Below are positions 15,444 to 59,954 of a DNA stretch of 64,000 nt, one piece after another (position 1 is the stretch's first letter; each line of letters begins with the position of its first letter). The stretch is from an uncultured Dehalococcoidia bacterium (GTDB taxonomy: Bacteria; Chloroflexota; Dehalococcoidia; Lucifugimonadales; G958296245), in NCBI GenBank assembly GCA_958296245.1, contig OY282458.1, forward strand, positions 1,696,777 to 1,760,776. The letters run 5' to 3'. The translations under genes and the position numbers were made by a program. The notes under the pieces were generated by a model. That model was not told the origin of the DNA. It worked only from the letters and a program-made list of their open reading frames with translations, and did no database searches.

Positions 15444-15581
15444 GTAACCGTTCAGAGTCCGTGAGGTCCTCTCGACCGGCGTAGCCCCGATAAAGCAGAC
15501 GTCTTTGTTCCCCACCAGCCCGCCCCTTGGTAACCGGGGGCATAGCCCCCAGACCCCCTGCCGGAGGGGAGAACCTCTCTC
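15444..15581 (-). mobile_element. Family A MITE-like repeat, copy A1 (truncated)
   Basis: Begins at GTAACCGTTCAGAGTCCGTG, the terminal inverted repeat of the family, and continues with the shared CCCCGATAAAGCAGACGTC block. A hairpin with GGGGGC and GCCCCC arms around a 3-base loop and the CCCCCTGCCGGAGGGG block follow. The far terminal repeat is missing; sequence homology stops at about 15581, where acyl-CoA synthetase-like coding sequence begins. The retained end faces the promoter of the hydratase operon. Confidence 0.8.
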
Positions 15582-16920
15582 GGCATGGGACGACCTATTC
15601 GGCGAGCTCGGCTGGCTGCCCGGGGGTCGTCTCAACCTCGCGCATGAAGCTATCGACCGTCATGCCCTCTCGGAAACCGCCAATGACCCGGCCCTAATAT
15701 GGGAAGGGGGGCTGGGAGAACAGGAAAAATACACCTTCGCAGAGATGAAAACCCTCTCCGACCTCTTCGCCGGCGTCCTTCGGAACCTGGGAGTCGTGAA
15801 GGGAGACCGGGTATTCATCCTGCTCGACTCGACACCGGAGCTGTTCGTAGCGTTCCTCGGAGCGCTGAAGGTGGGCGCGATAGCCTGCGTGCTCCCCTCG
15901 GAGCTTGGTCCCGACGACGCCAAGCACAGACTGGCAGCCGCAGGGGTCAAGATAGTCGTCACCGACCCCCGAGTGCGCCGCCGGCTCTCCGCCATCGTGT
16001 ACCACCTCTTCGACCTACAGCATATCGTTGTCGTCAACAAGAACGACCGCGACCCGTTCCCCACCGATCCGGCGGACCTGAGCTACGATGAAGAGATGCG
16101 AAAGGCATCCGGCGACGCGGTTGTGGAAGCGACCGGCCAGTACGAACCCGCACTAATCGACTACTCACCGAGCAGCGCCGCCGGGCCTCTCGGGGCCGTG
16201 CACCGCCATATCTCAGCGGCTCAGCACCTCGTAACAGGCAGATGGGCGCTCTGCCTGGGAAGAGGTGACGTCTACTGGTGCGCCGCCGCGCCGGGCAGCG
16301 CTGCGTGGCCGTCCCTCGGTCTGCTGGGCCCCTGGATGGCCGGCGCAGCGGTGCTGTCGGTAGAGGCGGCTGCGGACCCCGACGACTGGCGCCGCCTCGT
16401 TAGCAGGCACGGCGTGACCGTCGCGTACGCAGGCGCCGGGCCGATGCCGAGAATGTCCGGCGCCGCGCCGGAAACCGGCAGCGCCCCAACGCTGCGGCGC
16501 CTCCTATACGGCGGGGCCGCGGACTCCGCCACCGCATCCTGGCCGGAAGACGCCATTGGCGCCCCGTTCCGGCAGTGCTGGAGCCAAGCGGAGACGGGAA
16601 CCGCGATACTCGCCGACACTGGGGGGACGCCGAGACGAGGCCCGGCCGGCGTACCGGCCCCGGGGATCGAGGTGAGCATCCGGGACGACGATATGAAGCG
16701 CCTCCCGACAGGCGCGGCCGGCCACCTGACCCTCCGGCCCACCTGGCCGTCGATGTTCGCGGCCTACTGGGGAGACCCCGAGGCATACGGCTCGCGTTTC
16801 AACAGAGGATGGTACGTAACCGGAGAGCAGGCCCGCTTGGACGACGACGGATACGTCTGGCTGGAAGGCCCCATAAACAGAAGTGTGCAGGGGAACAGGC
16901 CCACTTTGCCGGACGCCTGA
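15505..16920 (+). CDS. Degenerate acyl-CoA synthetase-like (AMP-binding) ORF framed by repeats, probable pseudogene
   Basis: A 471-codon open frame (nominal TTG start). Residues about 28-455 resemble acetyl/acyl-CoA synthetases: WLPGGRLNLAHEAIDRH, ALIWEG, GDRVFILLDSTPELFVAFLGALKVGAI and GWYVTGEQARLDDDGYVWLEG. The first 25 residues are translated family A repeat and the last 15 are translated family B repeat, which supplies the stop. The phosphate-binding loop, normally YTSGTTGxPKG, reads YSPSSAAGPLG. The C-terminal domain with the catalytic Lys is absent. Adenylation activity is therefore not expected. No convincing start codon with a ribosome-binding site was found. Most likely a decaying gene kept open by chance or a pseudoenzyme. 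Confidence 0.6.
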   Translation: MFPTSPPLGNRGHSPQTPCRRGEPLSAWDDLFGELGWLPGGRLNLAHEAIDRHALSETANDPALIWEGGLGEQEKYTFAEMKTLSDLFAGVLRNLGVVKGDRVFILLDSTPELFVAFLGALKVGAIACVLPSELGPDDAKHRLAAAGVKIVVTDPRVRRRLSAIVYHLFDLQHIVVVNKNDRDPFPTDPADLSYDEEMRKASGDAVVEATGQYEPALIDYSPSSAAGPLGAVHRHISAAQHLVTGRWALCLGRGDVYWCAAAPGSAAWPSLGLLGPWMAGAAVLSVEAAADPDDWRRLVSRHGVTVAYAGAGPMPRMSGAAPETGSAPTLRRLLYGGAADSATASWPEDAIGAPFRQCWSQAETGTAILADTGGTPRRGPAGVPAPGIEVSIRDDDMKRLPTGAAGHLTLRPTWPSMFAAYWGDPEAYGSRFNRGWYVTGEQARLDDDGYVWLEGPINRSVQGNRPTLPDA

Positions 16921-17068
16921 GGGTGTGTCCTCAGATATAATCTATTCTCCATTCCTGACTATGGGGACTTTAAGGGGTGTGCAGAGGGGGGTAAAGACCC
17001 CCTTTGCCGGTGTGCCTGAGGGTGTCCCTCAAGATATAATCTATTCTCTCTTCCTGACTAGGAAGGGA
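16883..17068 (+). repeat. Family B hairpin repeat, tandem pair B2a/B2b
   Basis: Two direct copies begin with GTGTGCAG at 16883 and 16977. Each continues with an ACTTTGCCGG or CCTTTGCCGG tract, the hairpin CTGAGGGTGTGTCCTCAG (or CTGAGGGTGTCCCTCAAG), GATATAATCTATTCTC and TTCCTGACTA. The first copy ends the acyl-CoA synthetase-like frame: its CTGAGGG motif provides the TGA stop. Confidence 0.8.
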
Positions 17069-17121
17069 TGCCAGCAAGGAGCGTTTCTTCCGCAGCCTGT
17101 TTTTAGGGGGAGGCATACTCG

Positions 17122-18168
17122 ATGGAAAACAACGCCGCAGCACCTTGGTTCAGGGAAACGGAGATATTCACCTCAGGGGCGGAAGGCTACCACACCTTCA
17201 GAATACCGGGCCTCGTCGTGGCCGGAGACGGCGCCATACTGGCCTTCTGCGAGGGACGCAGAGACGGGAGCGACGACTACCACGCCCTCTATCTGCTGCT
17301 GAAGCGCAGCACCGACAACGGGGCCACCTGGGGACCTACCCAGGTCCTCGACGGCGACGGGACGCGTACCTATCACAACCCCACTGCCGTCCTCGACCGG
17401 GATACAGGCCTCGTCTGGCTGGCCTATAACATCGACGCCGATCGATTCATGGTCATGAGCAGCGCCGACAGCGGCGCGACGTGGTCCGAGCCAACCGACA
17501 TATCCGACCAGGTGCGGAAGCCGGGAATGACGTTCTACGTCGCCGGGCCGGGACACGGAATACAGCGCAAGGACGGCGCCCTCGTCATCCCCTGCGACCA
17601 CCACGCCGGGATGCGCATGGACTCCGTATACAACACCTCCCACGTGGTCTTAAGCAGCGACCACGGAGCGAGTTGGCAGATGGGCGGCTCACTCAGCGGC
17701 AGCACGGACGAGTGCGAGATCGTCGAGACGCAGGACGGAGCGCTGTACATGGCAGTACGCGGCCAACGAAACAGACCCGACTACCGTTACTGCGCTTGGA
17801 GCAGGGACGGAGGGATCACCTGGTCCGACATTGAGACGCTGAACGAGATCCCGGACCCGCATTGCCAGGCGAGCATCGCCAGGTTTACCTCCGAGGAGAG
17901 CCACGGCAAGAACCGCATACTGTTCTCCAACGTATCCAGCAAGACCCGAGACCACCTCACTATCAGAATCAGCTACGACGAGTGCAAGACGTGGACGTCG
18001 CCCAAGGTCCTATATCCAGGGCCGGCCGCATACTCTGAGCTGGCCGTCGCCGCCGACACGTCAATCTTGTGCATGTACGAAAGGGGTATACAGGGCCCCT
18101 ACGAGAGCATCAGAATGGCCCAGTTCAACCTAGATTGGCTGACCGACGGCCGGGATACACTCGGATAG
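17122..18168 (+). CDS. Sialidase-family (BNR/Asp-box) glycoside hydrolase
   Basis: A 348-residue six-bladed propeller of the sialidase/neuraminidase superfamily. FRIP is at residues 26-29. Five Asp boxes (SxDxGxTW type) lie at 63-70, 114-121, 178-185, 227-234 and, degenerate, 284-291. Tyr303 with nearby Glu305 (YSEL) fits the nucleophile motif, and Arg27 and Arg213 fit two of the Arg triad. No signal peptide is seen, so it may act in the cytoplasm on imported sugars. The substrate may be sialic acid or a related sugar acid. GGGGGAGG lies 8 bases before the ATG. A Gfo/Idh oxidoreductase gene follows and may act on the product. Confidence 0.87.
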   Translation: MENNAAAPWFRETEIFTSGAEGYHTFRIPGLVVAGDGAILAFCEGRRDGSDDYHALYLLLKRSTDNGATWGPTQVLDGDGTRTYHNPTAVLDRDTGLVWLAYNIDADRFMVMSSADSGATWSEPTDISDQVRKPGMTFYVAGPGHGIQRKDGALVIPCDHHAGMRMDSVYNTSHVVLSSDHGASWQMGGSLSGSTDECEIVETQDGALYMAVRGQRNRPDYRYCAWSRDGGITWSDIETLNEIPDPHCQASIARFTSEESHGKNRILFSNVSSKTRDHLTIRISYDECKTWTSPKVLYPGPAAYSELAVAADTSILCMYERGIQGPYESIRMAQFNLDWLTDGRDTLG

Positions 18169-18233
18169 ACGCGGCCCTTGCCCACGGGCGTGTCCACAAC
18201 ATGCGGCCTCGTCGACCTCGAAACGAAAGGGCT

Positions 18234-19241
18234 ATGACTATGGACAAGCTAAACGTTGCGGTCATCGGATGCGGCGGGCACGCGGAAAGCCACTTCCGCG
18301 AGATCGCCGGGGAACCCAGGCTGCGCTTGGAGGCCATCGCGGAGGTCAACCCGGACCGGCTGCAGGCTGCCGCCGCCAGACACCGGCCCAAACGCGCCTT
18401 TGCGGACCACCGGGACATGCTCGACAACGCCGAGATCGACGTAGCCTACGTGGTGACGTTACCGGGCCAACTCCTCCCCATCGTGCTGGACTGCCTCGAC
18501 CGCGGCGTAAACGTCTCCGTGGAGAAGTCCCCGGGAATGTCGTCCAGCGAGACCCTGCAGATGGTGGAAGCCGAGCGAAGAAGCAAAGCCAAGGCCATCG
18601 TCTCGTTCAATCGCAGGTACTTCCCGGAGGTGCTGGCGGTTAGACGGTTGATCCAGCAGCAGGGCGGCGCCGTCCACTGCGCCGCCACCTACAATAAGCC
18701 CCTGACCCTCGTCGGCACCCCCAAGACAAAAGATCTGTATCCGGACCCGCTGATCTGCGATTCGATACACTTGGTAGACCTGCTTCGCTGGCTGGCCGGC
18801 CCCACCGAAGCCGCCGCTGCCCACGCGACCGAGGTCTACTCGGAGGTCCAAGACGGCGACCGGCCCGGCGCTCATCGGCACAACGCCGTCATCAAGTTCG
18901 ACACCGGGGCCTTAGGCGCTATGATGAGCCACTACGGGATCGGCTACCGCATCCAGCGAGCGGAAGTACACGCTGAGGACACGTCCGCCTACTTCGAACT
19001 GACCAGCGGCACCCGATATGACCTCTACAGGGCGCAACCGGCGGACGACGGGACTACCCAAGGCGCCAAGAGCGAGGACCCGCTGGACCTGGAGCCAATC
19101 GGCGGCAGCGGATTCAACGAGACGAAGCACTTCATCGACTGCATTTTGGAAGACCGCACGCCCTGGTCGTCGCTGGCGGATTCGGTACACACTATGGAGC
19201 TGTGCGAAGCGATCCGAAGAGGCCATAAAGGCGCGATCTAG
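18234..19241 (+). CDS. Gfo/Idh/MocA family oxidoreductase
   Basis: A 335-residue NAD(P)-dependent dehydrogenase of the glucose-fructose oxidoreductase/inositol dehydrogenase family. The Rossmann motif VIGCGGHAE (residues 10-18) is followed by VEKSPGM, which replaces the family EKP motif. The downstream His in HLVDLLRW is the probable catalytic helper. The ATG at 18234 is chosen; the open frame runs back into the sialidase gene in another frame and is not coding there. It lies 65 bases after the sialidase stop and probably works in the same sugar pathway. Another member of the family is at 44.6-45.7 kb. Confidence 0.88.
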   Translation: MTMDKLNVAVIGCGGHAESHFREIAGEPRLRLEAIAEVNPDRLQAAAARHRPKRAFADHRDMLDNAEIDVAYVVTLPGQLLPIVLDCLDRGVNVSVEKSPGMSSSETLQMVEAERRSKAKAIVSFNRRYFPEVLAVRRLIQQQGGAVHCAATYNKPLTLVGTPKTKDLYPDPLICDSIHLVDLLRWLAGPTEAAAAHATEVYSEVQDGDRPGAHRHNAVIKFDTGALGAMMSHYGIGYRIQRAEVHAEDTSAYFELTSGTRYDLYRAQPADDGTTQGAKSEDPLDLEPIGGSGFNETKHFIDCILEDRTPWSSLADSVHTMELCEAIRRGHKGAI

Positions 19242-19688
19242 AGTTCATACCCTCTCGACCAAACCGCGGGCCTGCAAGAGCGCCATTAGCCGCAACCAGC
19301 CTGAAATATGGGCTGGAAAATACGGGCTGTGCAAAGGGATAAAGCTCCCCCCGGTACATGAAGATGTCCCTCGCCGGATGACAATTCCAACGACCTCCGC
19401 GCATACAGAATACCCCCCAACACCCTGCGTAAATACCGGGATATGCAGAGAGGCAGCGCCCTTAATGCCGAGCCTGAGAGTCTCTACAACCCACGTTGCC
19501 CATCCTCTCTCGATCCTGAAAATCCCCTAGTCCCGTAGTCCTGATTCAGACAACCCCTCCCTTCAGGGGTTCTCCCGATGCCGCTAATAACCGAGAGTTA
19601 GCAGACCCACGCTTCCGCCGAATAACAACCGCCCACGAAATACTCTAACGTGTATAATAAGGGCCGAACTTCATTTCAGGAGGCACGT
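19242..19688 (+). other. Intergenic region with decayed repeats and a promoter box
   Basis: No gene is supported here. The sequence holds weak echoes of family B: GTGCAAAGGG near 19331 and a block near 19435-19490 that resembles the GTGCAGAGG...GCCGGGAGTCTGAGGG tract with many changes. A perfect -10 TATAAT at 19653-19658 lies 31 bases upstream of the next start codon; no good -35 is visible. Confidence 0.5.
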
Positions 19689-19967
19689 ATGCCCACGTTC
19701 ACACTCATGTCACGAGAAGAAGCGGCCCTATATTCCGCAACGGGGAAACGGGCGCAGATCACCAAGCAGTACATCGGATATATCAATGAACTGAACGCCA
19801 GACAGTCCGGCAAACTCGAGCTTGAGGAGGGCGAATCCGTCCCTACGGTAAAGCGTCGGCTGCACACCGCCGCCAAAGCCGCACGCAAGCAGATCTCTAT
19901 CGACGCGGTGAGAAACAATACGATCTACTTCTCGATCAAGCGAAGAAAGAACGAGACGCCGGGTTAG
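19689..19967 (+). CDS. Uncharacterised small basic protein
   Basis: A 92-residue protein not recognised from family motifs. It is rich in Lys and Arg, especially in the second half (KRRLHTAAKAARKQISIDAV, then IYFSIKRRK), and could bind nucleic acid. No membrane segment or signal is seen. The ATG at 19689 is supported by AGGAGG 6 bases upstream and by a TATAAT box at 19653. The open frame extends 13 codons further, but that part would start at the promoter. It stands alone between repeat-rich stretches, and codon use looks normal. Confidence 0.7.
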   Translation: MPTFTLMSREEAALYSATGKRAQITKQYIGYINELNARQSGKLELEEGESVPTVKRRLHTAAKAARKQISIDAVRNNTIYFSIKRRKNETPG

Positions 19968-20079
19968 CCTATAAACGGCCCCGTCCCCTGTAGGCTGCGG
20001 GGACTCCCCCTGTGCGAAAATCCCTCCCGCAACACTGTTGCAATTGCAGGCTCGTTGAAACCTTTTGACGTTACCCTAG

Positions 20080-20142
20080 AGCCCCTTCCTGAGCAGGAAG
20101 AAAGGCATTGTGTCTGAGGGTTTCCCCCTCAGACACCCGGCT
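20080..20142 (-). repeat. Family B hairpin repeat, copy B4
   Basis: Contains the small stem CTTCCTGAGCAGGAAG and the best-preserved hairpin of the family, TGTCTGAGGG-N5-CCCTCAGACA (10 bp arms, about 20110-20135). The hairpin overlaps the last codons of the sufU-like gene and provides its TGA stop. It may also end transcription of the SUF operon, though there is no T-run. Confidence 0.7.
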
Positions 20143-20587
20143 CCCCATACGACGAAATAGTATCCTCTATCGCCCCCCAGATTAGCAGCGCGCACTTAAT
20201 CCGGACGGGGTATTCCCTCACGCCTGCCAGGGTATTCAACTCCCCCATGCGCCCACGCTCTTCGCCGCTCAAGTCGGCGCCGCCCATCATGCCGGCAAAC
20301 AACGCCCTCAGAGTATCGGCCTGCGCCAAGGTCAGCCCCAGAACGGCTTCTGAGGCCATCGAGGCAGTCGCCTGATTGATGGAGCAGCCTTCGGCTTGAA
20401 CCCCAATCTCGGCGATTCGGCCCCGCTCGAGAACAATCTGAACGGCTACCTCGTCCCCGCAGAAGGGATTTACGGCGCAGCCAACAAGGTCGGGGCGGGC
20501 AAGCTCCCGCCGGTTGCGCGGGCTGCGCCGGTGCTCCAAGATCGCGTCCTGGTACAGCTCATCTAGCAGCCGATGCTCCATCTCCAA
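20129..20587 (-). CDS. sufU: SufU-like Fe-S scaffold/sulfurtransferase, first copy
   Basis: A 152-residue SufU/IscU-type protein, which in Gram-positive-like SUF systems accepts sulfur from SufS. The zinc/cluster ligands are in place: Cys43 and Asp45 in NPFCGDE, Cys68 in GCSINQATAS and Cys132 in RIKCALL. The start lies 29 bases inside the end of sufS, so the two are translationally coupled. This is one of two SufU proteins in the operon; the other lies at 22.9 kb. The last residues and the stop are formed by a family B repeat. Confidence 0.9.
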   Translation of the reverse strand: MEMEHRLLDELYQDAILEHRRSPRNRRELARPDLVGCAVNPFCGDEVAVQIVLERGRIAEIGVQAEGCSINQATASMASEAVLGLTLAQADTLRALFAGMMGGADLSGEERGRMGELNTLAGVREYPVRIKCALLIWGAIEDTISSYGEPGV

Positions 20588-21803
20588 AGTATCTCAACGC
20601 TCGCTTCAGTGCGTCAACCAACGTGTCAACTTCCTGCTCGGTATTGTAGACGTAGAGGCTGGCCCTGGCAGTGGCAGGCACGCCAAGGGCGCCCATGAGA
20701 GGCATGGCGCAGTGATGGCCCGTCCTTATGGCTACGCCTTCCTGATCCAAGAAGGTGCCCAGATCGTGCGGATGCACGTCGGACGAATAGAAAGACAGGA
20801 TGCCTCCACGCGAGTCAACGTCCCACGGTCCGAACAGGTCGATCTCCTCCAGCCCTCGTAAGCCGTCCAGAGCATAGGCTGTCAACTGCTTCTCATGCTC
20901 GCGCACGTTCTCCATGCCAAGGCCGGCAAGGTAATCTACGGCGGCGCCCAACCCGATAGCCCCGGCGATGTTGGGCGTACCGGCCTCGAAACGCATCGGC
21001 AAGTCGTTCCAGCTAGCGCCCTCGTAAGACACCTCCAACACCATCTCCCCCCCGTACAGGAACGGTTCCATCTGCTCCAAAACGTCCCGCCGCGCATAGA
21101 GGGCGCCGATACCCGTCGGCCCCATCATCTTGTGACCTGAGATCGCCAGGAAGTCGCAATCAAGCTCCTCTACGTCCACAGGCTGATGAGGAACGCTTTG
21201 AGCCCCGTCCACCAGGACCGCCGCCCCCACGGACCGGGCCATGCCAGCCAATTCCTTGACCGGTACCACCGTCCCGAGCGCATTGGACACGTGCGTTACG
21301 GCTAACAGCTTTGTCTTCGTGTTTATTACCGAGTCCGCGCCGTCCAGATCCAGCCTTCCGTCCTCTGTCAGGTCCAGAAACTTCAGTACGGCCCCCTTCT
21401 TGGCCGCGACCCTCTGCCACGGCACCAAGTTACTGTGATGCTCAAGCCGTGTCAGTACGATCTCGTCGCCCTCGGAGATGTTGCTCTCGCCCCAACTGCG
21501 CGCAACCAGGTTGATCGACTCGGTCGCGTTGCGCGTCCAGATGATGGATTCCGGCGCCCCTGCGTTGATGAAGCGGGCTACCTTCTCGCGGGCCTCTTCG
21601 TACCGATCCGTCGCCTCCATGCTCAGAGAATGCACCCCTCGATGGACGTTGGAGTTGTACGTCTCGTAGTACTCGCTCAGCGCCTGAATTACGGCCCGGG
21701 GCTTATGCGACGTCGCCGCATTGTCCAGGTACGCCAAGGGCTTCCCGTGAACGGTCCTAGACAGGATCGGGAAATCGTTCCTTATTCTCTCGACGTCAAG
21801 CAC
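20559..21803 (-). CDS. sufS: Cysteine desulfurase SufS
   Basis: A 414-residue class V PLP enzyme that takes sulfur from cysteine and passes it to SufU. Lys225 in SGHKMMGPTG binds PLP. Cys365 in RTGHHCAMPLM carries the persulfide and shows the SufS-type (group II) context. GTG at 21803 is chosen. The open frame extends 34 codons upstream, but that part translates a family A repeat. The ribosome-binding sequence GGGGAAG lies in the target-site duplication of that repeat. sufU overlaps its end. Confidence 0.93.
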   Translation of the reverse strand: MLDVERIRNDFPILSRTVHGKPLAYLDNAATSHKPRAVIQALSEYYETYNSNVHRGVHSLSMEATDRYEEAREKVARFINAGAPESIIWTRNATESINLVARSWGESNISEGDEIVLTRLEHHSNLVPWQRVAAKKGAVLKFLDLTEDGRLDLDGADSVINTKTKLLAVTHVSNALGTVVPVKELAGMARSVGAAVLVDGAQSVPHQPVDVEELDCDFLAISGHKMMGPTGIGALYARRDVLEQMEPFLYGGEMVLEVSYEGASWNDLPMRFEAGTPNIAGAIGLGAAVDYLAGLGMENVREHEKQLTAYALDGLRGLEEIDLFGPWDVDSRGGILSFYSSDVHPHDLGTFLDQEGVAIRTGHHCAMPLMGALGVPATARASLYVYNTEQEVDTLVDALKRALRYFGDGASAAR

Positions 21804-22000
21804 TTCACTTCCCCGTAACTGTTCAGAGTTCGTGAGGTCTTTTTCGACTGGCGCAGCCCCGATAAAGCAGATGTCTTTGATCCCCGCCCGCCCGCACCTT
21901 GGCAACTGGGGGCACGGCCCCCAGACCCCCTGCCGGAGGGGAGGACCTCTCCGGCCTTCCCCCTGCGAGTCTCACAGAGTCTGGACAGCTTCACTTCCCC
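21804..22000 (-). mobile_element. Family A MITE-like repeat, copy A2, with 11-bp target-site duplication
   Basis: The element proper is 21815-21989. It begins with GTAACTGTTCAGAGTTCGTG and ends with CTCACAGAGTCTGGACAGC, which are imperfect inverted repeats of each other. Both sides carry TTCACTTCCCC (21804-21814 and 21990-22000), the expected footprint of an insertion. The element fills the gap between the Rieske gene and sufS and ends 12 bases before the sufS start. No coding sequence of its own. Confidence 0.85.
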
Positions 22001-22091
22001 GACTCAGATGATTCGGATGAGCATCCGCACTCCCCACGGTTAGCGAACCGTGGATTACCGGGCGTTAGCACCGTGGACAGATGAGAAGCGG

Positions 22092-22397
22092 TCAAACCTC
22101 CACCTGGATCTCTTCGCCTTCTAACCTGACCGGAAAGGTATCGACCGGCAGGAAGGCGGGAGCCTCCGTTGCCTCGCCTGTTCTGACGTCGAACCTGGCG
22201 CCGTGAAGCGGGCACTCGATCTCGAAGCCGTCGAGGTCTCCCTCGTCCAATGATCCCTCATCGTGCGTGCAGATGTTATCGATGGCGCATATGCGGCCGT
22301 CGGCGTTGCAGATGGCTATATCCCTGTCCCCCACCGTGACCACCTTCGCCGTGCCGGCCGGTACGTCCGGAAGCCTCGCTACTGTGACGTATCCCAT
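22092..22397 (-). CDS. Rieske-type [2Fe-2S] ferredoxin-like protein
   Basis: A 101-residue single-domain Rieske protein. The ligands are Cys43 and His45 in CTHDEG and Cys62 and His65 in CPLHGARFD. It resembles the NirD/biphenyl-dioxygenase ferredoxin type, lacks a membrane anchor and is probably a cytoplasmic electron carrier. It sits inside the SUF operon after the Rrf2 regulator. It may give electrons to Fe-S assembly or be a client of it (inference). Confidence 0.9.
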   Translation of the reverse strand: MGYVTVARLPDVPAGTAKVVTVGDRDIAICNADGRICAIDNICTHDEGSLDEGDLDGFEIECPLHGARFDVRTGEATEAPAFLPVDTFPVRLEGEEIQVEV

Positions 22398-22417
22398 TCA
22401 TCCCTCCCTGGGTTATT

Positions 22418-22855
22418 TTAGGCGGGGACCAGCCGATCTTCCGCTAGGCGCCGCGTCCGATCCGTCAGGTCCGCAATAGTCGTGGAGTCGAGCACCCTTG
22501 CAATGGCCTCCTCCACCTCCTTCCACACCTCGCGCTGCATGCACGACGGCGTGAGGTCGCACTGTTCAGCATCGTCGAGGCAGTTCACCAACGTCTGTGT
22601 TCCCCCCAAGTACTCCATGACCATACCCATCGTGATCTTCGAGGGGTCGCGCGCCAAAGAGTGCCCCCCCTGCGGACCGCGGCGGCTCCTGACCAAACCC
22701 TCCTTCTGGAGGGTATGCAACACCCTCGCCAAGTAGGGCTCGGGTATGCTTCTGCGCCTGGCAATCTGACCGGCGCGGACCGAACCTTCACCGGCGTGCT
22801 CCGCAAGGTCCACAAGCGCCCGGATACCGTAGTCGACCTGTATGGGAACGTGCAT
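22418..22855 (-). CDS. Rrf2-family transcriptional regulator (SufR/IscR-like)
   Basis: A 145-residue winged-helix regulator. The N-terminal DNA-binding part (MHVPIQVDYGIRALVDLAEHAG, then SIPEPYLARVLHTLQKEGLVRSRRG) is typical of Rrf2. Three Cys at 92, 99 and 105 (NCLDDAEQC, then PSC) could hold an Fe-S cluster, as in IscR. It is encoded in the middle of the SUF operon and is the natural candidate to bind the palindrome over the sufB promoter at 27.7 kb, so as to repress the operon when clusters are plentiful. Confidence 0.9.
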   Translation of the reverse strand: MHVPIQVDYGIRALVDLAEHAGEGSVRAGQIARRRSIPEPYLARVLHTLQKEGLVRSRRGPQGGHSLARDPSKITMGMVMEYLGGTQTLVNCLDDAEQCDLTPSCMQREVWKEVEEAIARVLDSTTIADLTDRTRRLAEDRLVPA

Positions 22856-22878
22856 CGGAGCCTCCTGAATACTGAGGC

Positions 22879-23340
22879 CTACTCAGTCTTGACGGTCTCA
22901 TCCCGCTCGTTCAACGCAGCCGCCAACGTGTGCCACGCCAGCGTCGCGCACTTCACCCGAATGGGAAACTCCCTCACCCCCGCCAGCATCTCAAGTTCCT
23001 GCAGATCATCGCCGGGCTCGAAGTCCTCTCCCGGCGCACGAGTAACCATGCTGCGAAACGACTCGAAAAGCCCCAGAACCTCGGTGACGCCCTTGCCCCT
23101 TACGCTCTCCGTCATCATCGAGGCGGACGCCTTCGATATCGCACACCCGGTACCCTGAAACCCGACGTCCGAAATGACGCCGACCTCATCGACGCGCAGG
23201 CTCAGCGAGACCTTGTCCCCGCAGAGCGGGTTGAACCCCTCGGCCCTGCGGTTGGCGTCAGGAAGCAGCCGGAAATTGCTGGGCTTCCGCGAGTGCTCGA
23301 GGATCGTATCCTGGTAGAGATCGTCTAGCTGCGTCATCAC
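22879..23340 (-). CDS. sufU: SufU-like Fe-S scaffold/sulfurtransferase, second copy
   Basis: A 153-residue SufU-family protein with all ligands: Cys40 and Asp42 in NPLCGDK, Cys66 in GCAISKASAS and Cys131 in RVKCATLAW. It is clearly diverged from the copy at 20.1 kb. Its start (GTG at 23340 or ATG at 23337) overlaps the sufD stop. The two may divide labour, one as sulfur acceptor of SufS and one as scaffold, or they may reflect an old duplication. Confidence 0.9.
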   Translation of the reverse strand: MMTQLDDLYQDTILEHSRKPSNFRLLPDANRRAEGFNPLCGDKVSLSLRVDEVGVISDVGFQGTGCAISKASASMMTESVRGKGVTEVLGLFESFRSMVTRAPGEDFEPGDDLQELEMLAGVREFPIRVKCATLAWHTLAAALNERDETVKTE

Positions 23341-24668: not shown

Positions 24669-24734
24669 TAGTGGGCCGATTTTATCGGCTAGTCATACCA
24701 ATCGGACTCGAAGGGTTCTCATCATGAATTCCAG

Positions 24735-27713: not shown

Positions 27714-27757
27714 ATATGGTCAGGAATTATTCTAACCATATCGGCCCCAGCCGTCAA
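27714..27757 (-). promoter_or_regulatory. SUF operon promoter with overlapping palindromic operator
   Basis: On the minus strand, -35 TTGACG (27752-27757) and -10 TAGAAT (27729-27734) are separated by exactly 17 bp. A near-perfect inverted repeat spans 27714-27741: ATATGGTTAG, 8 bp, CTGACCATAT, with nine of ten bases paired. It covers the -10 box and the start of transcription. The Rrf2-family regulator encoded in the operon is the likely ligand. Confidence 0.75.
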
Positions 27758-27773: not shown

Positions 27774-27899
27774 GTAACTGTTCAGACCCTGTGAGACCTG
27801 AAGGGGAAAGTCCGGAGAGGTCCTCCCCTCTGGCAGGGGTCCGGTATGCAGGCGAGACGCCTGCGCTCCCAGTTACCAAGGGGCGGGCGGGTGGGGATC
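27774..27899 (+). mobile_element. Family A MITE-like repeat, copy A3 (truncated)
   Basis: Starts with GTAACTGTTCAGACCCTGTG and continues with the left-end block AAGGGGAAAGTCCGGAGAGG, the CTCTGGCAGGGG hairpin arm and AGTTACCAAGGGGCGGGCGG. It also carries GCAGGCGAGACGCCTGC, a palindromic insert absent from other copies. The far end is missing. The retained end lies 17 bp upstream of the sufB -35 box. Confidence 0.7.
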
Positions 27900-27945
27900 C
27901 CCGCCCATCCTCTTCATCCACGTCCGACTGCCCCGACGGTGGGAT

Positions 27946-45692: not shown

Positions 45693-45843
45693 GTAAGCCC
45701 ACCCGGTACGCCTGCTCGGCGAGCGCCCAAGGACGCGGAGGTACTGGGCAGCGCGCCTCCCGCCCGGCTCACCGGCTGTAGTATAGCAGGGCGCGAAAAC
45801 GCAGGCCTCCAAGTATCCGAACCCAAATTCACGCCGGCTTGAG

Positions 45844-46014
45844 AAACTGTTCAGACTCTGTGAGACTCGAAGGGAGAAGTCTGGAGAGGGTTCCTCCCCT
45901 CTGGCAGGGGATTCTGGGGGCTGTACCCCAAGTTACCAAGGGGCGGGCGGGGATCAAAGACGGCTGCCTTATCGGGGCTGCGCCAGTCGAAAGACCTTAC
46001 GAAGTCTGAACAGC
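45844..46014 (+). mobile_element. Family A MITE-like repeat, copy A4 (full length)
   Basis: Starts AAACTGTTCAGACTCTGTGA and ends ACGAAGTCTGAACAGC, inverted relative to each other. The internal blocks are AGTTACCAAGGGGCGGGCGG, GATCAAAGACGGCTGCC and TTATCGGGGCTGCGCCAGTC. The right end stops 4 bp before the -35 box of the apt promoter. No clean target-site duplication is seen at this copy. Confidence 0.85.
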
Positions 46015-46018
46015 GCGG

Positions 46019-47874: not shown

Positions 47875-47951
47875 GGCGACGTAGCCAAGTGGTCTAAGGC
47901 GGAGGTCTGCAAAACCTCTATTCGGCGGTTCGAATCCGCCCGTCGCCTCCA
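47875..47951 (+). tRNA. tRNA-Cys (GCA)
   Basis: Acceptor stem GGCGACG pairs with CGTCGCC (47941-47947). The anticodon loop CTGCAAA gives anticodon GCA, flanked by the GAGGT/ACCTC stem. The T arm GGCGGTTCGAATCCGCC is complete. The CCA end is encoded after discriminator T. The sequence resembles bacterial cysteine tRNAs. Confidence 0.95.
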
Positions 47952-48687: not shown

Positions 48688-48724
48688 TCCTCACCTCATC
48701 GTACGGTTAGTGTACCATCAGACC

Positions 48725-48913
48725 AATAAAGCAGATGTCTTTGATCCCCACCCACCCGCCCCTTGGTAACTGGGGGCATAGCCCCCAGACCCCCTGCCGG
48801 AGGGGAGAACCGATCCAGGACCTGACCCACCGAGAGGAGCGGCGCCAGACCCCCCGCCGGAGGGGAGAACCTCTCTGGACTCCCCCTTCGGGTCTCACAG
48901 AGTCTGAACAGTT
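48725..48913 (-). mobile_element. Family A MITE-like repeat, copy A5 (left end lost, internal duplication)
   Basis: Left side begins within the element at AATAAAGCAGATGTCTTTGA; the terminal repeat there is missing. The hairpin TGGGGGCATAGCCCCCA is perfect. The CAGACCCCCTGCCGGAGGGG block occurs twice, about 60 bp apart, so part of the element is duplicated. The right end GTCTCACAGAGTCTGAACAG is intact and lies 31 bp before the FAD oxidoreductase start. Confidence 0.8.
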
Positions 48914-48943
48914 TCGCGTAACGGAAGCCGACGGGAGGTCTCG

Positions 48944-51577: not shown

Positions 51578-51582
51578 ACGGC

Positions 51583-52728: not shown

Positions 52729-53164
52729 TACGGGGCCTCCATTCGGGACGCATCCGGCGGGCGAGTCAAATACCTAAGGTCGGTGGAAAAGCAGCCGGGT
52801 CTGTGCCCTAAGACACAGATGGCGGCTTCAGCGGCAGCGCACGCTAACCGGCGGCTGCCGACTGCACGCGGGCCTAGTCGCCTACCTCGCCGCCCGCGCA
52901 TTATACATGCCCCGCGTTCATGCCGAGATTGCCCGGCTGAATCTCCCGACCTCGAGAGCGTTTAGGAGGAGAGACACCCTCAGACTCCCGGCGTAGGGAC
53001 TCCGCACCTCTGCACTCCCCGTATTTCCGAGGGACACCCCATTATGGGGGTGTGCAAAGGGGGGCTGCTTGGGCTACGATTGAGCGGATCGGCCTGAAGC
53101 GCCGCGCCACGCAGTGGCTTGAATACCTTCCCTTACCATCGAGGTCTAAAACAGGAGGCACAGG
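52729..53164. repeat. Intergenic region with family B repeat copy B7
   Basis: About 435 bases between divergent genes. From 52960 to 53070 lies a minus-oriented family B copy: ACACCCTCAGACTCCCGGCG, CACCTCTGCACTCCCCGTAT, and a second, inverted arm GGGGGTGTGCAAAGGGG at about 53045. The first 230 bases hold no feature I can support. AGGAGG before the next start (53165) is a strong ribosome-binding site. Confidence 0.65.
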
Positions 53165-54097
53165 ATGAACCGCGAAGAGCTGAGGCAACTGATACAAGGG
53201 ACCCTGGTCACGGTACCGACCGCCTTCGATGAGAATATGAACGTCGATCTGGCGCGCATGACCGACCTGACAAGGTGGTGGGTGGAGCAAGGCCTGGGCA
53301 CCAATACCGCGCCCCTGAAGGTGACAGCCGCGATGGGCGAGGGCCCGAACCTCGGCGACGACGAGTGGCCCCACGTCCTGCGCACTGTGGTCAACGCCGC
53401 GGGCAGCGGCGCCGTCGTAATGTGCGCCCTCAAGTCGAAGAATACCCTTCACGCCATCGACGATGCGAAGAGGGCGCAAGACCTCGGCGCCGTCGGTCTG
53501 CAGATCGACCTGCCCTTCTTCCACCACTGCCAGCAGGACGACTACGTGCGGTACTTCACAGACATCTCGGACGCGATCGACATCGGCATCATGATCTACA
53601 ACACACACTGGTTCACCCAGAATCCCCAGCAGGAATCGATGCAGACGGACACGATGCTGAGGATGAAGGACGCAGAGCACGTCGCGGCGCTCAAGTGGTC
53701 CCCTGCCGAGGGGCAGGAATACGACGACATGACGAAAATCGCCCACGTATTCAACATTATCGACAACACCGGCTCGCCCGTCCGGTGCCACAGAAACGGA
53801 GGACGGGGCTACATCAGCAGCCTGATCGCCGTATACCCGCCTCACGACCTGGCGATATGGCGGCTGTTGGAGGAGGGCAAATACGACGAGGCTCAAGCCA
53901 GGTTCGACCGCGTAAGGAGCGCGCTGGCCGATTGGGACGCGAGGACGCGCGCAAAGTCCGGCGGCTACCGGCAGGGCAAGGGGATGATGGCCGCCTTGGG
54001 CCGCCCTGCGGGGCCGCCGCGTCCGCCGACGCTGCCCTTGGACGACGACGAGACCGCGGAGGCCGCCAGGATCATGAAGGGCCTCGGCTGGAGCTAG
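53165..54097 (+). CDS. Dihydrodipicolinate synthase (DapA) family aldolase/lyase, second copy
   Basis: A 310-residue paralogue of the protein at 5.1 kb. Tyr145 in IMIYNTHW and Lys177 in ALKWSP match the class I aldolase pair. The first loop (AAMGEGPNLGDDEW) departs from the GxxGE-S/T pattern, so a role in lysine biosynthesis is unlikely. The C-terminal tail is long and Pro-rich (RPAGPPRPPTLPLDDDE). AGGAGG precedes the ATG. Its stop shares CTAG with the convergent PAC2 gene. Confidence 0.85.
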   Translation: MNREELRQLIQGTLVTVPTAFDENMNVDLARMTDLTRWWVEQGLGTNTAPLKVTAAMGEGPNLGDDEWPHVLRTVVNAAGSGAVVMCALKSKNTLHAIDDAKRAQDLGAVGLQIDLPFFHHCQQDDYVRYFTDISDAIDIGIMIYNTHWFTQNPQQESMQTDTMLRMKDAEHVAALKWSPAEGQEYDDMTKIAHVFNIIDNTGSPVRCHRNGGRGYISSLIAVYPPHDLAIWRLLEEGKYDEAQARFDRVRSALADWDARTRAKSGGYRQGKGMMAALGRPAGPPRPPTLPLDDDETAEAARIMKGLGWS

Positions 54098-55005
54098 CTG
54101 TCATCAGGATTATCCTCTAGCCGCTGGCCCATCTGCTGCAGGAAGCTCTCCACGTCCGGGGCCAGCTCCACCTTCTCCTCCGCACTCTCCGGCGGGGCAG
54201 CCTGGCCCGTGGCGACCTTGTCGTAGTCGGCCTCGAGCTGGCGGATGACCCTGGTTATCTGGGAGTTGTTCTGCACCAGGGAGCTGATGTACTTGTACTG
54301 CTGCTCCCCCTTGGTGAAGTCAACGAGCGAGCTGGGGAAGCCGTATATGGCGCACAGGACCTGCAGGACGCGGGCGGCGGCTTGGTGGTCCTCGTCCAGT
54401 TGGGCATACTGGGGAACATGCACCATCAAGCTCGCCGTGGGCGTACCTGCGGCCTCCAGGTTCTCCATGACGAGGTGTACGATGCTGGTAGGCCCCTGGT
54501 ACGTGTTGCTCCTCTCGGAGATGAGATCCCCGGCCAACCTTACCTGCTCCTCGGAGAAGGTGCCCGTTACGAGAAGGGGCCGGGTGTGGGGAACCGCGTC
54601 GTAGAACCCGCCTATACGGCAGTACTCGCTGACGCCGAAGTGCTGGAGCAGAGCCACGATGGCGTCCGTGTACTCCTCACCTCTGGCGTGCGGCTCTCGG
54701 ATGTGGAGGAAGATGTAATCCTTGGAGCTCTCCGCGTCGAGGCCGTAGTTGACTATGGTATTGGGTATGGATAGTGTACGCCGCCCCTCGACCGACCGCA
54801 TCACCGGCCTATCCCTGGTGAAGTCGAAGAAGTCGCCGGGCCGCGACAGCTTTCCCAACTGTCTGGCGCCCAGGTGCTGCTCGATCTTACTAAGCACCAA
54901 GCGGCCAACCTTGCCGACGTTGACCCACGGCGTGAGCATCGCCAACGCGCGCGGGTCGCGCAGAGAGGGGATGTCGTCGGATACGTCAAATGCGCCTACT
55001 CTCAT
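54094..55005 (-). CDS. PAC2-family protein (proteasome-assembly-chaperone-like)
   Basis: A 303-residue protein of the PAC2/ATP-grasp-like family, related to archaeal and eukaryotic proteasome assembly chaperones. Visible blocks are FDFTRDRPVM, IFLHIREPHARGEEYTDAIVALLQHFGVSEYCRIGGFYDAVPHTRP and TASLMVHVPQYAQLDEDHQAAARVLQVL. Bacteria without proteasomes also have it, and its role there is unclear. No proteasome gene lies in the window. No membrane segment; the C-terminal 40 residues are acidic and probably flexible. Confidence 0.8.
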   Translation of the reverse strand: MRVGAFDVSDDIPSLRDPRALAMLTPWVNVGKVGRLVLSKIEQHLGARQLGKLSRPGDFFDFTRDRPVMRSVEGRRTLSIPNTIVNYGLDAESSKDYIFLHIREPHARGEEYTDAIVALLQHFGVSEYCRIGGFYDAVPHTRPLLVTGTFSEEQVRLAGDLISERSNTYQGPTSIVHLVMENLEAAGTPTASLMVHVPQYAQLDEDHQAAARVLQVLCAIYGFPSSLVDFTKGEQQYKYISSLVQNNSQITRVIRQLEADYDKVATGQAAPPESAEEKVELAPDVESFLQQMGQRLEDNPDDS

Positions 55006-55274
55006 GGGTGGTATCGTGCCAGAGTAGGCCGTCTAATGCAAGGCCAGAGTCGAAATTTTCTAATACGAGGCATAGCTATGGTCAACCACGTGGAGGGCGA
55101 GCAGACCCATGACGTCTGTACCCGTCCGGCCCTGGGCGGACCCTCTCGACACCACACCACTTGGACACTTGATATGGGGGGGGCCGCGGGCATACACTCC
55201 GGGACGAGAGCAGACCGCCGCTAACGGCAATAGGCAGGACCTGAAGGCAGACCACCGCATCATGGCCCCATAGT

Positions 55275-56249
55275 ATGGAATACGTAAGATTCGGCCGGGC
55301 CGGCGTGAAGGTCTCGCGTCTGGCCTTGGGCTTAGGATTCAGAGGAATAAGCTCGCCGGACGAGGCCACCCGGGTCATCGAGCACGCCATCGACTTGGGC
55401 GTCAATCTGATCGACTGCTCCAACTTCTACGGCCTAGCCGACGGGTCCATGCTCTCAGAGGAGATTCTCGCAGGAGTACTGAAAACCCACCGCGACGACC
55501 TGGTAATCACCTCCAAGGTGTTCGGCCGGATCGGCCCCGGACCCAACGACAGCGGCAACTCTCGCCACCACGTCATGAGGGAGGTAGAACGCTCCCTGAG
55601 ACGCCTGGACACCGACCGCATAGACGTCTACCTGCTCCACGGCTACGATGAGGATACCCCGCTCGAAGAGACCCTGCGAGCCTTGGACGACCTGATCACG
55701 CAGGGCAAAGTGCTGTACGCCGGCTGCAGCAACTTCGCCGCCTGGCAGGTCTGCAAGGCGCTATGGACAGCCGACAGGCTCAGCGCCGGCCCGATCATCT
55801 GCGTGCAGCACCCTTACAGTCTGCTCAACCGGGCTATTGAGACCGATCTATTCGGGCTCGTGCGAGATCAGGGGCTGGGGGTCATGGCGTTCAGCCCATT
55901 GGGCGCCGGTCTGCTCAGCGGCGATTACCGCACCGGAACGGCGCCCCCGCCGGGCACGCTCTGGGTGGGCAAGGATAGAGCGCGCTTCCATGCCTCGATG
56001 TCCGGCAGCGCCGTGGCCGTGCTCGGCGAGTTGTCCCGCATAGCGGCGGAACGGGGCAAGACGGTCGCCCAGACTGCTCTGAACTGGGTCATTTCCAAGA
56101 GCGAGGTAACGGTCGCGATATTCGGCTGCGACGGTGTCGAACACCTCGAAGACAATCTCGGCGCAGTGGGTTGGGAACTGAGCGAAGACGAGATGTCGGC
56201 CCTAGACAAGGCGTCCGAGGGAGCCAGCGTCAGCTTCGTCAATCTGTGA
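55275..56249 (+). CDS. Aldo/keto reductase
   Basis: A 324-residue NADPH-dependent reductase. The catalytic tetrad is Asp47, Tyr52 (LIDCSNFYG), Lys81 (ITSKVFG) and His122 (YLLHGYD). SNFAAWQV, VQHPYSLLNR and the C-terminal FGCDGVEHLEDNLGAV are typical of the YajO/general stress protein group. It reduces aldehydes or ketones; substrate open. It is convergent with the Nudix gene, 26 bases apart. Confidence 0.9.
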   Translation: MEYVRFGRAGVKVSRLALGLGFRGISSPDEATRVIEHAIDLGVNLIDCSNFYGLADGSMLSEEILAGVLKTHRDDLVITSKVFGRIGPGPNDSGNSRHHVMREVERSLRRLDTDRIDVYLLHGYDEDTPLEETLRALDDLITQGKVLYAGCSNFAAWQVCKALWTADRLSAGPIICVQHPYSLLNRAIETDLFGLVRDQGLGVMAFSPLGAGLLSGDYRTGTAPPPGTLWVGKDRARFHASMSGSAVAVLGELSRIAAERGKTVAQTALNWVISKSEVTVAIFGCDGVEHLEDNLGAVGWELSEDEMSALDKASEGASVSFVNL

Positions 56250-56275
56250 AGGGCGTGCCGCTCTCGGGTTCGCCG

Positions 56276-56764
56276 TCACCTGTCCCGCCAAGCCCTCAGG
56301 ATGCCGGCGTCGTGAAAGAAGGGGAGCGGCGGCAGCGCGTCCGGGTCGAACAGCGCCGCGTCGCTGACCTCTTCCCCCGCCTGCAGGACGCCCCCGACGA
56401 CCTCCGCCGCGTAGGCCGCCAGCACTATGGGGTCGCCCGTCCTTGAGTAGACGCCGATCAGCCGCGTGACCTCCACGACGAGGCCGGTCTCCTCGCGGAC
56501 CTCCCTGACGGCGGCGTCCTCCACGGCCTCGCCCCGGTCCACGTACCCGGAAGGAAAGCTCCACTCGCCGAGCGCGGGCTCGTTGGCCCTGCGCACCAAC
56601 ACGAGCTTGCCGTCTATCGCTATGAGTACGACGGCGGCCAGCTTGGGATCTAGGAAGACTATGTTCCCGCAGCGAGGGCACCGGGGCCTGGGTTTCCCGT
56701 GGACCGTCTCGACGACCAGACCGTGGCCGCAACGCCCGCAGTAGCTCACGCCCGCTTCCAACAC
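56276..56764 (-). CDS. Nudix hydrolase with N-terminal zinc ribbon (NudC-like)
   Basis: A 162-residue protein. Cys9, Cys12, Cys29 and Cys32 form a zinc ribbon. The Nudix box is complete: Gly73, Glu79, Arg87, Glu88, Glu91, Glu92 and Gly94. The layout resembles NudC-type NADH pyrophosphatase without the N-terminal domain, or small ADP-ribose/NADH hydrolases. Likely cleans up modified or excess nucleotides. Confidence 0.88.
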   Translation of the reverse strand: MLEAGVSYCGRCGHGLVVETVHGKPRPRCPRCGNIVFLDPKLAAVVLIAIDGKLVLVRRANEPALGEWSFPSGYVDRGEAVEDAAVREVREETGLVVEVTRLIGVYSRTGDPIVLAAYAAEVVGGVLQAGEEVSDAALFDPDALPPLPFFHDAGILRAWRDR

Positions 56765-56960
56765 GGCCTCCTCCGTACCATCCCAGCCATGCTACCGGCA
56801 CGGCCCAACGGCGTCTAGGACGCTGTCACTCACCGAACCACGTCTTCACCATGTCTGTATCCGTAGAAGCTGGCCCGGCGCCCTGCCCTCCCCCGCAATA
56901 GATTGGCGGGGACACCCTAACCCTGAACATACTCGTTCCGTAAAGTTCTTATATTGATGA

Positions 56961-56989
56961 TATAATGCGAGTCGGCCCCTTCGGGGCCG
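56961..56989 (+). promoter_or_regulatory. gyrA -10 box followed by a leader hairpin
   Basis: TATAAT at 56961-56966 is the likely -10 of gyrA; no good -35 is visible at 17-18 bp. Transcription would start near 56973, exactly where a stem CGGCCCC-TTC-GGGGCCG begins (56973-56989). The mRNA would thus carry a hairpin at its very 5' end, which can protect transcripts from decay. The gyrA ATG follows at 57027 with AGGGG upstream. Confidence 0.5.
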
Positions 56990-57026
56990 GCGTATCACTA
57001 CCAACCACGTATAGGGGCAACGGCAC

Positions 57027-59552
57027 ATGGTCACGAAAACCGACTTCGGGTACGTCAGACCCACGCAGATCGAAGAGGAGATGCGCAGCTCCTACCTCGA
57101 CTACGCGATGAGCGTAATCGTCTCAAGGGCCCTTCCAGACGTGCGCGACGGACTCAAACCCGTCCAGAGGCGTATCCTCTACGCCATGCATGACATGGGC
57201 ATGCGCTCCGGCTCGGCGTACAAGAAGAGCGCCCGCCTGGTCGGGGAGGTCCTCGGCAAGTACCACCCCCACGGAGAGGCGCCGGTCTACGACGCCATGG
57301 TCCGCATGGCGCAACCCTTCTCCATGAGGCTGCCCCTCGTGGACGGCCAAGGCAACTTCGGCAGCGTCGACAACGACCCGCCTGCCGCCATGCGGTACAC
57401 CGAAGCGCGCCTCTCCCCCGCCGCCGAAATGATGATGGCCAACCTCGACCAGGAAACCGTCGACTTCGTCGACAACTTCGACGGGAGCCTCACCGAACCC
57501 GTCGTCCTGCCGGCCAGGCTCCCAAACCTGCTCATAAACGGCGCAGCCGGAATAGCCGTAGGCATGGCAACCAGCATCCCCCCGCACAACGCAACGGAGA
57601 TCTGCAACGGCGTCATACTACTGATCGACAACCCCGACGCCGCCCTCCCCGACCTCATGAAGCACGTCAAAGGGCCCGATTTCCCCACCGGCGCGACCAT
57701 CATGGGACGCGAGGGCATCAAGAGCGCATACTCCACCGGCAGAGGCCACGTCGTCGTCCGAGCAACCGCCGAAATCGAGGAAACCAAACGCTCCGACAGA
57801 ATGCGCGTGGTTGTGACCGAACTGCCCTATCAGGTCAACAAGGCCGCCCTGATACAAAAGATCGCCGCCCTGATCAAGAGCAAGAAGATCGACGGCATCT
57901 CCGAAATCCGCGACGAGTCCGACCGCAAAGGCATGCGCATCGTCATGGAACTCCGCTCGGGTACGCAGCCCCTCGTCGTGCTGAACAACCTCTACAAGCA
58001 CACCGCCATGCAGAGCACCTTCTCCGCGAACATGCTGGCCCTCGTGGACGGCACCCCCGAAATCGTAACCCTCAAGCAGGCCCTCCAACACTACGTCGAC
58101 TTCCGCAAAGAGGTCGTCAAGCGCCGCTCCCAATTCGAACTCCGCAAAGCACAGGAGCGCGCCCACATACTGGAAGGCCTCAGGGTCGCCCTCTCGAACC
58201 TGGACGCTATCATCGCCCTGATACGGAACGCCAGAGACGCCGAAGAGGCCAGAAACGGCTTGATGGAGCGGTTCGGCCTCGACCAACCACAGGCACAGGC
58301 CATCCTGGACATGCAGCTCCGACGCCTCGCCGCACTGGAACGCGAACGCATCGAGAATGAGTATCAACAGCTCCAGGCCCTGATAAAGGAACTCGAAGAG
58401 CTGATCGGGGACCCGCAAAGGATCCTCGCCGTGGTCCGGTCCGAGACCGAGGAACTCAAGAAGAAGGTCCGCGGCGCCCGACTGACGCGCATCGGCGGCG
58501 ATGCCGAAGAGTTCGACCGCGCCGCGCTGGAACCCCACCAGCAAGTGATCGTAACCCTCAGCAAGGCCGGCTACGTCAAACGCATCCCGGCAACCACCTA
58601 CCGCAGCCAGCACCGAGGGGGCAAGGGCGTCGTCGGCATGACACGCAAGGAGGACGACCCCGTCAACCATATCCTCGTCGTGGACACACACGACACCCTG
58701 CTGTTCTTCACCGACCGCGGCCGGGTGCTCCCTCTGATCTCATATGAACTCAAGGGCGACACCTCCCGCACCACGCGCGGCGTCCCGGTCGTCAACGTCA
58801 TCCCGATCGGCGGCGGCGAGGGCGTCAACTCCGTGATCGGGGTCGCCAACATGCACGAGGAAGACCGCTTCCTCGTCATGGCGACCCGTAAGGGCACGAT
58901 CAAGCGCATAGCTCTGGAGCAAGTCTCATCCGTCCGCCGTTCAGGGCTCATCGTGATGAACCTCCAGCCGGACGACGAACTCGTGGCCGCCCGCCTCGCC
59001 AGAGCCGGCGACGACGTGATGATGGTCTCCCACGGAGGGATGTCCATCCGCTTCCCGGTCGGCGAGGTCCGGTCCCGGCAGCGGGTCGCCGGCGGCGTCC
59101 GAGGCATGGAATTGGGACCGGGCGACTTCATCGTCTCGATGGACGTCGTGGTGCCGGACAGCAAGCTCTTGGTGATCAGCCAGAACGGCTACGGCAAGCT
59201 AACGGACCTGAAGAGATACCGCAGTCAGGGAAGGGGCGGCTCCGGCATAACCACCCTCAAGATAACCCGGAAGACGGGCCCTGTCGCCGCGGCGGAGGTC
59301 ATCGCCGACAGCGACGAACTCTATATAGCCTCCGAGAAGGGCCAGGTGCTCAGGACCAACCTGTCCGAGATACGAAACACCGGAAGGGCAGCCCAGGGCG
59401 TGACGATCTTCAAGCCCCAACCCGGCGACGCCGTGGCGTCCATCGCCTGCGTCCGAGACCTCCAGGAGCTGGAGGCCGCCGCCGCGTCCGGCAAGAATGG
59501 CAAGAACGGTAAGAGCAACGGCCAGATCCCCAAGACCTCCAATCTAGTGTGA
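57027..59552 (+). CDS. gyrA: DNA gyrase subunit A
   Basis: An 841-residue type IIA topoisomerase subunit. The winged-helix region with [16 protein letters not shown] is followed by the catalytic Tyr124 in [10 protein letters not shown]. The coiled-coil tower ends with the Gln/Arg-rich block near residue 430. The C-terminal DNA-wrapping propeller carries the GyrA box as QHRGGKG (528-534), one change from QRRGGKG, which marks it as gyrase, not topoisomerase IV. At positions equal to E. coli Asp82, Ser83 and Ala84 it has Glu84, Ala85 and Pro86. The tail is basic ([10 protein letters not shown]). No gyrB nearby. Confidence 0.96.
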
Positions 59553-59778
59553 GGATCGAACCAACCGGGGTTTGATGGGTTGCATCCACCCATGAGGGCG
59601 GATGAGGGGTCGAGCCGCCCCAAATGGCAGGCCCGACTCCTCACTCCCCTAACGCTGCCGTACGACCCCGGAGCAACGTTACCGGTAACTTCAACCACGC
59701 TACCCACTCCCGCCATCAGCGCCTCCGACACCTGCACAGATTCCGTTCCGTAGCCTAACATCTTCACTCCATTGACTT
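59553..59778. other. Intergenic region downstream of gyrA
   Basis: About 225 bases before the family A repeat. GGGTTGCATCCACCCATGAG could form a weak terminator-like stem. A minus-strand open frame crosses it but is composed partly of translated repeat and partly of antisense gyrA, so no gene is called. Confidence 0.4.
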
Positions 59779-59954
59779 GAAACTGTTCAGACTCTGTGAG
59801 ACCCGAAAGGGGAAGTCCAGAGAGGTCCTCACCTCCGGCAGGGGGTCTCGGGGATCTGCCCCAAGTTACCAGGGGCGGGCGGGTGGGGATCAAAGACGTC
59901 TGCTTTATCGGGGCTGCCCCGTCGAAAAGTACCTCACGAACCCTGAACGGTTAC
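59779..59954 (+). mobile_element. Family A MITE-like repeat, copy A6 (full length)
   Basis: Starts GAAACTGTTCAGACTCTGTG and ends TCACGAACCCTGAACGGTTA, the two terminal inverted repeats. Inside are AAGTTACCAGGGGCGGGCGG, GATCAAAGACGTCTGC and TTTATCGGGGCTGCCCCGTC. TTCACTC-NN-TTGAC occurs just left (59763) and just right (59961), a possible imperfect duplication of the target. It lies 17 bp before the next gene's -35 box. Confidence 0.85.

Follow-up and report, generated by a model that had tools for sequence, protein, structure and literature searches.

The stretch of DNA analysed here (the window; 64,000 nt) comes from a bacterium of a sparsely studied group of Chloroflexota and lies in a genome, G000, that consists of one contig of 2.685 Mb. 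Six copies of a short element (A1 to A6) are found within it, all at the places given in a preliminary description, with limits that have since been slightly refined through profile search and end scans. These copies are set out below with their flanking features; here and throughout, promoters are sequence predictions from a sigma70-type model.

15422-15427, minus strand: −35 (TTGACC) at 16 bp from A1, part of a predicted leftward promoter; −10 (TATAAT) at 15398-15403, spacer 18, score 19.7 (model from other genomes).
15444-15583, minus strand: A1, R-type end at 15444, opposite end truncated.
21794-21799, minus strand: −35-like TTGACG, 15 bp left of A2; the −10 at 21771-21776 is weak, with promoter scores of 5.7 and 5.2 (counting cut 6).
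21807-21814: left 8-bp target duplication of A2, ACTTCCCC, 8/8 match.
21815-21992, minus strand: A2, complete, two ends.
21993-22000: right 8-bp target duplication of A2, ACTTCCCC, 8/8 match.
27752-27757, minus strand: −35 (TTGACG) at 16 bp from A3, part of a predicted leftward promoter; −10 (TAGAAT) at 27729-27734, spacer 17, scores 17.7 and 17.8.
27774-27918, plus strand: A3, left end kept, right end truncated.
45843-46017, plus strand: A4, complete apart from decay of its terminal bases on the right; the preferred offset shows no promoter.
47875-47951: tRNA-Cys (gca).
48723-48915, minus strand: A5, reduced to a single end, with its central part in duplicate; the preferred offset of that end shows no promoter.
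59779-59954, plus strand: A6, complete, two ends.
59971-59976, plus strand: −35 (TTGACG) at 16 bp from A6, part of a predicted rightward promoter; −10 (TACACT) at 59994-59999, spacer 17, score 15.8.

The inverted ends that had been ascribed to all of the copies are present in full on A2, A4, and A6; A1, A3, and A5 have retained one end each and are thus truncated. None of the copies is long enough to encode a transposase, a lack of coding capacity having been noted before. Strong predicted promoters stand at 16 bp from three of the six (A1, A3, and A6), with that of A6 pointing toward an ORF at 60052 for a zinc alcohol dehydrogenase-like protein (Pfam). A class-V aminotransferase gene has A2 on its 5′ side, and the listed ORF of this gene extends into the element. 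Among the ten ORFs tested, Pfam-matched stretches were uninterrupted by window copies, and a search of phages and plasmids with A4 as the query returned no match.

The copies in the window belong to a much larger family. Their terminal consensus is GTAACTGTTCAGAnTYnGTGAG, and in G000 this end pattern (up to 3 mismatches) was matched 155 times in forward and 145 times in reverse orientation, against 6 and 5 matches for the reversed-pattern control; a second end pattern gave 130 and 133 matches (forward and reverse), against 2 and 1 for its control. The first pattern thus yields ~145 pairs' worth of ends and, together with the 192 candidates obtained by BLAST on G000 (40 of which were scored), a copy number of ~145-190. 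Neither a sequence unique to this contig nor copies lacking conserved ends elsewhere, the two outcomes named beforehand as counting against a mobile family, was encountered. The end matches in G000 total 300 versus 11 in the control, and the same ends occur in other genomes of the order.

A sample of G000 in 103 merged segments (434 kb of the 2.685 Mb), drawn from among the matches listed, held 196 ends with up to 5 mismatches, whereas the reversed pattern gave 1. Both inverted ends were present in 48 copies, many further copies being single-ended; the paired copies have a median length of 177 bp, too short for a transposase, and 24 aligned full-length copies from among them (a few of them from tandem arrays) share a mean identity of 83%. 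The element interior comprises GC-rich hairpins and a folding consensus (computed without a shuffled control). Tandem arrays occur at L038 (G000 C1:80967-81284), L152 (C1:234503-235063), and L179 (C1:1160479-1161186), in which some units share or miss an end.

Comparison across the order extends this distribution, with the ends detected in 16 of 250 genomes (G000 counted) and no matches for the control. A scan of the GTDB collection (which may omit G000) with the exact end pattern returned 57 stretches, whose titles all name Chloroflexi, Chloroflexota, or Dehalococcoidia. In a second high-copy genome, G022, the interior of the elements is similar to that of the window copies. The same ends enclose interiors unlike those of the window at L079, L087, L091, L077, L101, and other loci; these elements often carry other hairpin repeats (e.g., CTTCCCCCTGCGAGGGGGAAGG), and their ends may be capturing local repeats. 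A distinct dispersed repeat of ~60 bp also lies at L091:1149-1209, with many occurrences in genomes G247, G248, and G249.

Several signs point to transposition. Of the 48 paired copies in G000 (some array units included), 10 are flanked by exact 8-bp target duplications and 21 by duplications matching in at least 6 of 8 positions; shuffled flank pairs gave 0 of 2256 and 0.9%, respectively, and the signal vanishes once one flank is shifted by 1-2 bp. Among single-ended copies, an exact 8-mer repeat of the flank was found nearby for 13 of 99 usable ends (0.78 expected). Seven of these 13 are in arrays or seemingly accidental. In the other six (G000 C1:137375, 383873, 672683, 1463186, 1536225, and 1639889), end and repeat are separated by 42 to 306 bp, and these look like copies shortened or rearranged after insertion with the duplication kept, or moved with a substitute end. 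An empty site was identified at one locus, in relatives of the window's genome: G249 holds a 113-bp element bearing the ends of the family and flanked by CGGAGAAG and CGGAGGAG, at a locus that in G247 is empty and carries a single CGGAGGAG together with a promoter (TTGACA-17-TATCAT) identical to that of G249. Because the G247 site has the promoter without the element, the promoter was not introduced by the insertion. For a second candidate locus, also in relatives, the comparison was not clean. Length (~175 bp), terminal inverted repeats, high copy number, 8-bp duplications, and the empty site in a relative together bear out the original assignment to the miniature inverted-repeat transposable elements (MITEs).

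The family itself had gone unrecognised; it is IS66. One end-match locus, L106, opens into a decayed IS66 transposase (PF03050), and a search with its protein found matches in 11 of 247 genomes, counting the one that holds L106. Open IS66 genes in the same order form single-gene elements of 1.43-1.48 kb with near-identical ends, a group that we take to be ISBst12-like. The transposases of L127, L129, and L130 match PF03050 (E 9.7e-36 to 1e-39) and NF033517 (254-266 bits; cutoff 180), while the ends of L127, L129, and L131 differ from the MITE pattern by 1-4 mismatches, and exact 8-bp duplications flank L127, L131, and L138. Overall, 9 of 12 full-length elements examined have duplications of at least 6/8; the other three (L129, L130, and L290) have none, and their best promoter scores are 0.5, 3.4, and 7.2. 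Left out of the 12 for want of a confident end pair were L126, L133-L136, L291-L294, and L296, the last of which (at the L289 locus) lacks a duplication, although a promoter that looks good stands 14 bp away. In addition, L139 and L140 represent one copy in genome G196, of which only one end was recognised, and L141, L142, and L297 are repeat records of L138, L137, and L128. Contig C1 of G196 carries several IS66 element copies in one genome (L131, L137, and L138). Seven clade transposases group together in a tree with support of 100/100, a grouping that is partly by construction since these proteins were gathered by similarity. This IS66 clade is present in the order studied here and in a few other Chloroflexota.

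Other genomes of the order therefore contain the full-length element, bounded by the same ends, that had been sought for this family. In G000, none was found at the limits used, be it with the L106 protein (E 1e-20), two relatives (1e-70 and 1e-60), or the IS66 model (1e-40). The L106-protein search likewise found no source in G022; at L118, where the ends lie ~1.75 kb apart, no transposase was seen by eye in the translated frames between them. In both high-copy genomes, which gave no IS66 source, mobilisation in trans by a transposase of the IS66 clade is inferred. The G000 copies look like ageing relics, their source gone.

A feature absent from the preliminary description is the placement of these elements relative to promoters. 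Its first sign was a pair of peaks, for TTGAC and TATAAT, in the outward flanks of ends from an undercounting scan. A promoter model was then trained on one genome set and tested on another, with ends counted when scoring at least 6 at an offset of 14-18 and with 57 shifted offsets as background. By this rule, (i) 42 of 175 ends score in G000 (shifted mean 2.0, maximum 5), (ii) 20 of 70 in G022 (mean 1.16, maximum 5), and (iii) 31 of 89 in other genomes (mean 1.32, maximum 4), a set in which counts are not fully independent, with at least two pairs of related loci (L227/L229 and L214/L239). Offset profiles of all three sets peak at 15-17 bp, over a width of 2-3 bp. Taken by element, 19 of the 48 paired copies in G000 score (shifted mean 1.03, maximum 3). 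No promoter scoring at least 6 was present at the preferred offset for 133 of the 175 ends and 29 of the 48 paired elements in G000, and the earlier, undercounting scan placed one beside only 6 of the 20 copies that had good duplications.

A promoter is faced by R-type ends more frequently than by L-type ends. Promoter-facing ends in G000 comprise 24 of 62 R-type, 8 of 69 L-type, and 10 of 44 unclassified ends (p 4e-4); the undercounting scan had given 12 of 57 R-type versus 8 of 67 L-type. For promoter-facing G000 ends gathered in that undercounting way, the neighbouring gene read outward in 16 cases, inward in 2, and was unclear in 18, versus 48, 16, and 59 for other G000 ends; this gene context is weak evidence.

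Full-length relatives display the same spacing. Among the nine elements of the related clade with duplications, seven score at least 9 at 15-16 bp, compared to 0 of 10 for other Chloroflexota IS66 elements with duplications, for which the best score is 8.8 (p 7e-4, for a cut of 9 picked after the scores were seen); at the lower cut of at least 4, the counts are 8 of 9 versus 5 of 10. The comparison group derives from 30 loci fetched, of which 13 had a usable end pair and were examined and 10 had a duplication of at least 6/8, and its shifted control exceeded 9 in 2 of 26 flanks (L276 and L279). L132 is barely past the cut at 9.0, with its own shifted controls reaching 8.7; L131 scores only 6.6, and at L138 the preferred offset is without a promoter; the promoter-upstream habit is hence a preference and no strict rule. 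The promoter-facing side of the transposase gene is the right-hand flank in some elements and the left-hand flank in others.

Our data thus show that the MITEs and their full-length relatives are enriched 15-16 bp upstream of the −35 of predicted, outward-reading sigma70-type promoters, and it is very probable that the six window copies represent a large IS66-derived MITE family mobilised in trans by the DDE transposase of this IS66 clade. The cue by which the transposase would pick its site is the promoter region itself or RNA polymerase bound to it. An insertion upstream of the −35 would leave genes and core promoters intact and thereby allow copy number to rise.

The main alternative is that insertion was broad and that selection did the sorting; i.e., hits in genes and core promoters were lost, with sites just upstream of the −35 being tolerated or useful, so that the surviving copies form a peak. 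All of our data come from natural survivors, copies without a detectable promoter are common, and the uninterrupted Pfam-matched stretches noted above would also be expected under such sorting. However, selection for a merely free site should produce a broad plateau, and the peak is 2-3 bp wide. The same offset moreover recurs in three genome sets and in the full-length elements, whereas other Chloroflexota IS66 elements with 8-bp duplications never reached a score of 9 (0 of 10). We therefore regard this explanation as unlikely, albeit deserving of more weight than the others considered here.

For IS66, excerpts of PMC11946415 describe an 8-bp duplication and inverted repeats of 20-30 bp starting GTAAGCG. 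The PF03050/NF033517 transposase, the 8-bp duplication, and the GTAA start are common to the elements described here, the ends of which continue with CTGTTCAG after GTAA, mostly with CTG next where IS66 has GCG (PMC11946415); the relatives here also have one gene, in contrast to the several typical of IS66 in excerpts of PMC3281130. The spacing itself is known from Mutator-type lineages. According to excerpts of PMC3942029, TnGBS/ISLre2 elements of the Mutator superfamily (p-MULT 3) insert 15-17 bp upstream of the −35 of sigma-A promoters, and the ISKra4 group (p-MULT 4) gives a similar but lower signal, with promoters predicted on both sides. Resemblance to the elements here is confined to target choice, the transposase superfamily being a different one. 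The word IS66 is absent from the main text of that source (PMC3942029), and the excerpted part of PMC9208149 gives no promoter habit for IS66. Within the open-licence PMC papers searched, we found no report of promoter-upstream spacing in IS66 nor of MITEs of SAR202/Dehalococcoidia with such placement.

This shared geometry of 15-17 bp (excerpts of PMC3942029) would also fit elements moved by a Mutator-type transposase (ISLre2/ISKra4), with the resemblance to IS66 ends a coincidence, an explanation to which we give very little credence. These ends bound IS66 transposases with 8-bp duplications, and no Mutator-type transposase was found inside them with the ISKra4 model in the ten genomes checked, G000 and G022 included. 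That model matched in 2 of the 10 genomes (one match being a fragment below cutoff), neither of them G000 or G022, and no close end match surrounds these matches (best 7 and 6 mismatches of 22).

Host repeats (REP/BIME-like), structured RNAs, or regulatory elements kept upstream of genes would agree with the GC-rich hairpins, the folding consensus (again without a shuffled control), the tandem arrays, and the promoter-proximal position, but are similarly improbable, being contradicted by the 8-bp duplications and empty site, by ends common to IS66 elements, and by the unrelated interiors that the same ends enclose in several other genomes (G022, with its similar interior, aside). Single copies may later have been used by the host. 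As a candidate RNA family, the copies were also rejected, with Rfam gathering thresholds yielding the tRNA-Cys as the sole match in the window.

Returning to the IS66-derived MITEs, we propose tentatively, as a reading that could well hold but is slightly likelier to fail, that this IS66 clade independently evolved the promoter-upstream targeting known from Mutator elements, with the same 15-16 bp spacing, most simply because both read one landmark, and that the MITEs exploit this as a safe-harbour strategy. That landmark, at about −50, would be the RNA polymerase holoenzyme or a DNA shape that the polymerase needs. When transposase families that are unrelated use one spacing, a landmark shared among bacterial promoters is indicated, and the mechanism becomes testable by comparison. 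Promoter-upstream placement would also help to account for the tolerance of a small genome to well over a hundred copies.

MITEs with proposed parents have been described previously, including MITEPsy1 (IS5-like, queried; excerpts of PMC3189936) and MITECca01 (IS982; excerpts of PMC9769881). As there, the elements here are short, gene-less, bounded by inverted repeats, and thought to depend on a parent transposase; they differ from those excerpted accounts in their proposed IS66 parent, copy number of well over 100, lack of a resident parent found, and promoter-proximal placement. Such insertions could serve to mark promoters in uncultured bacteria without a transcriptome.
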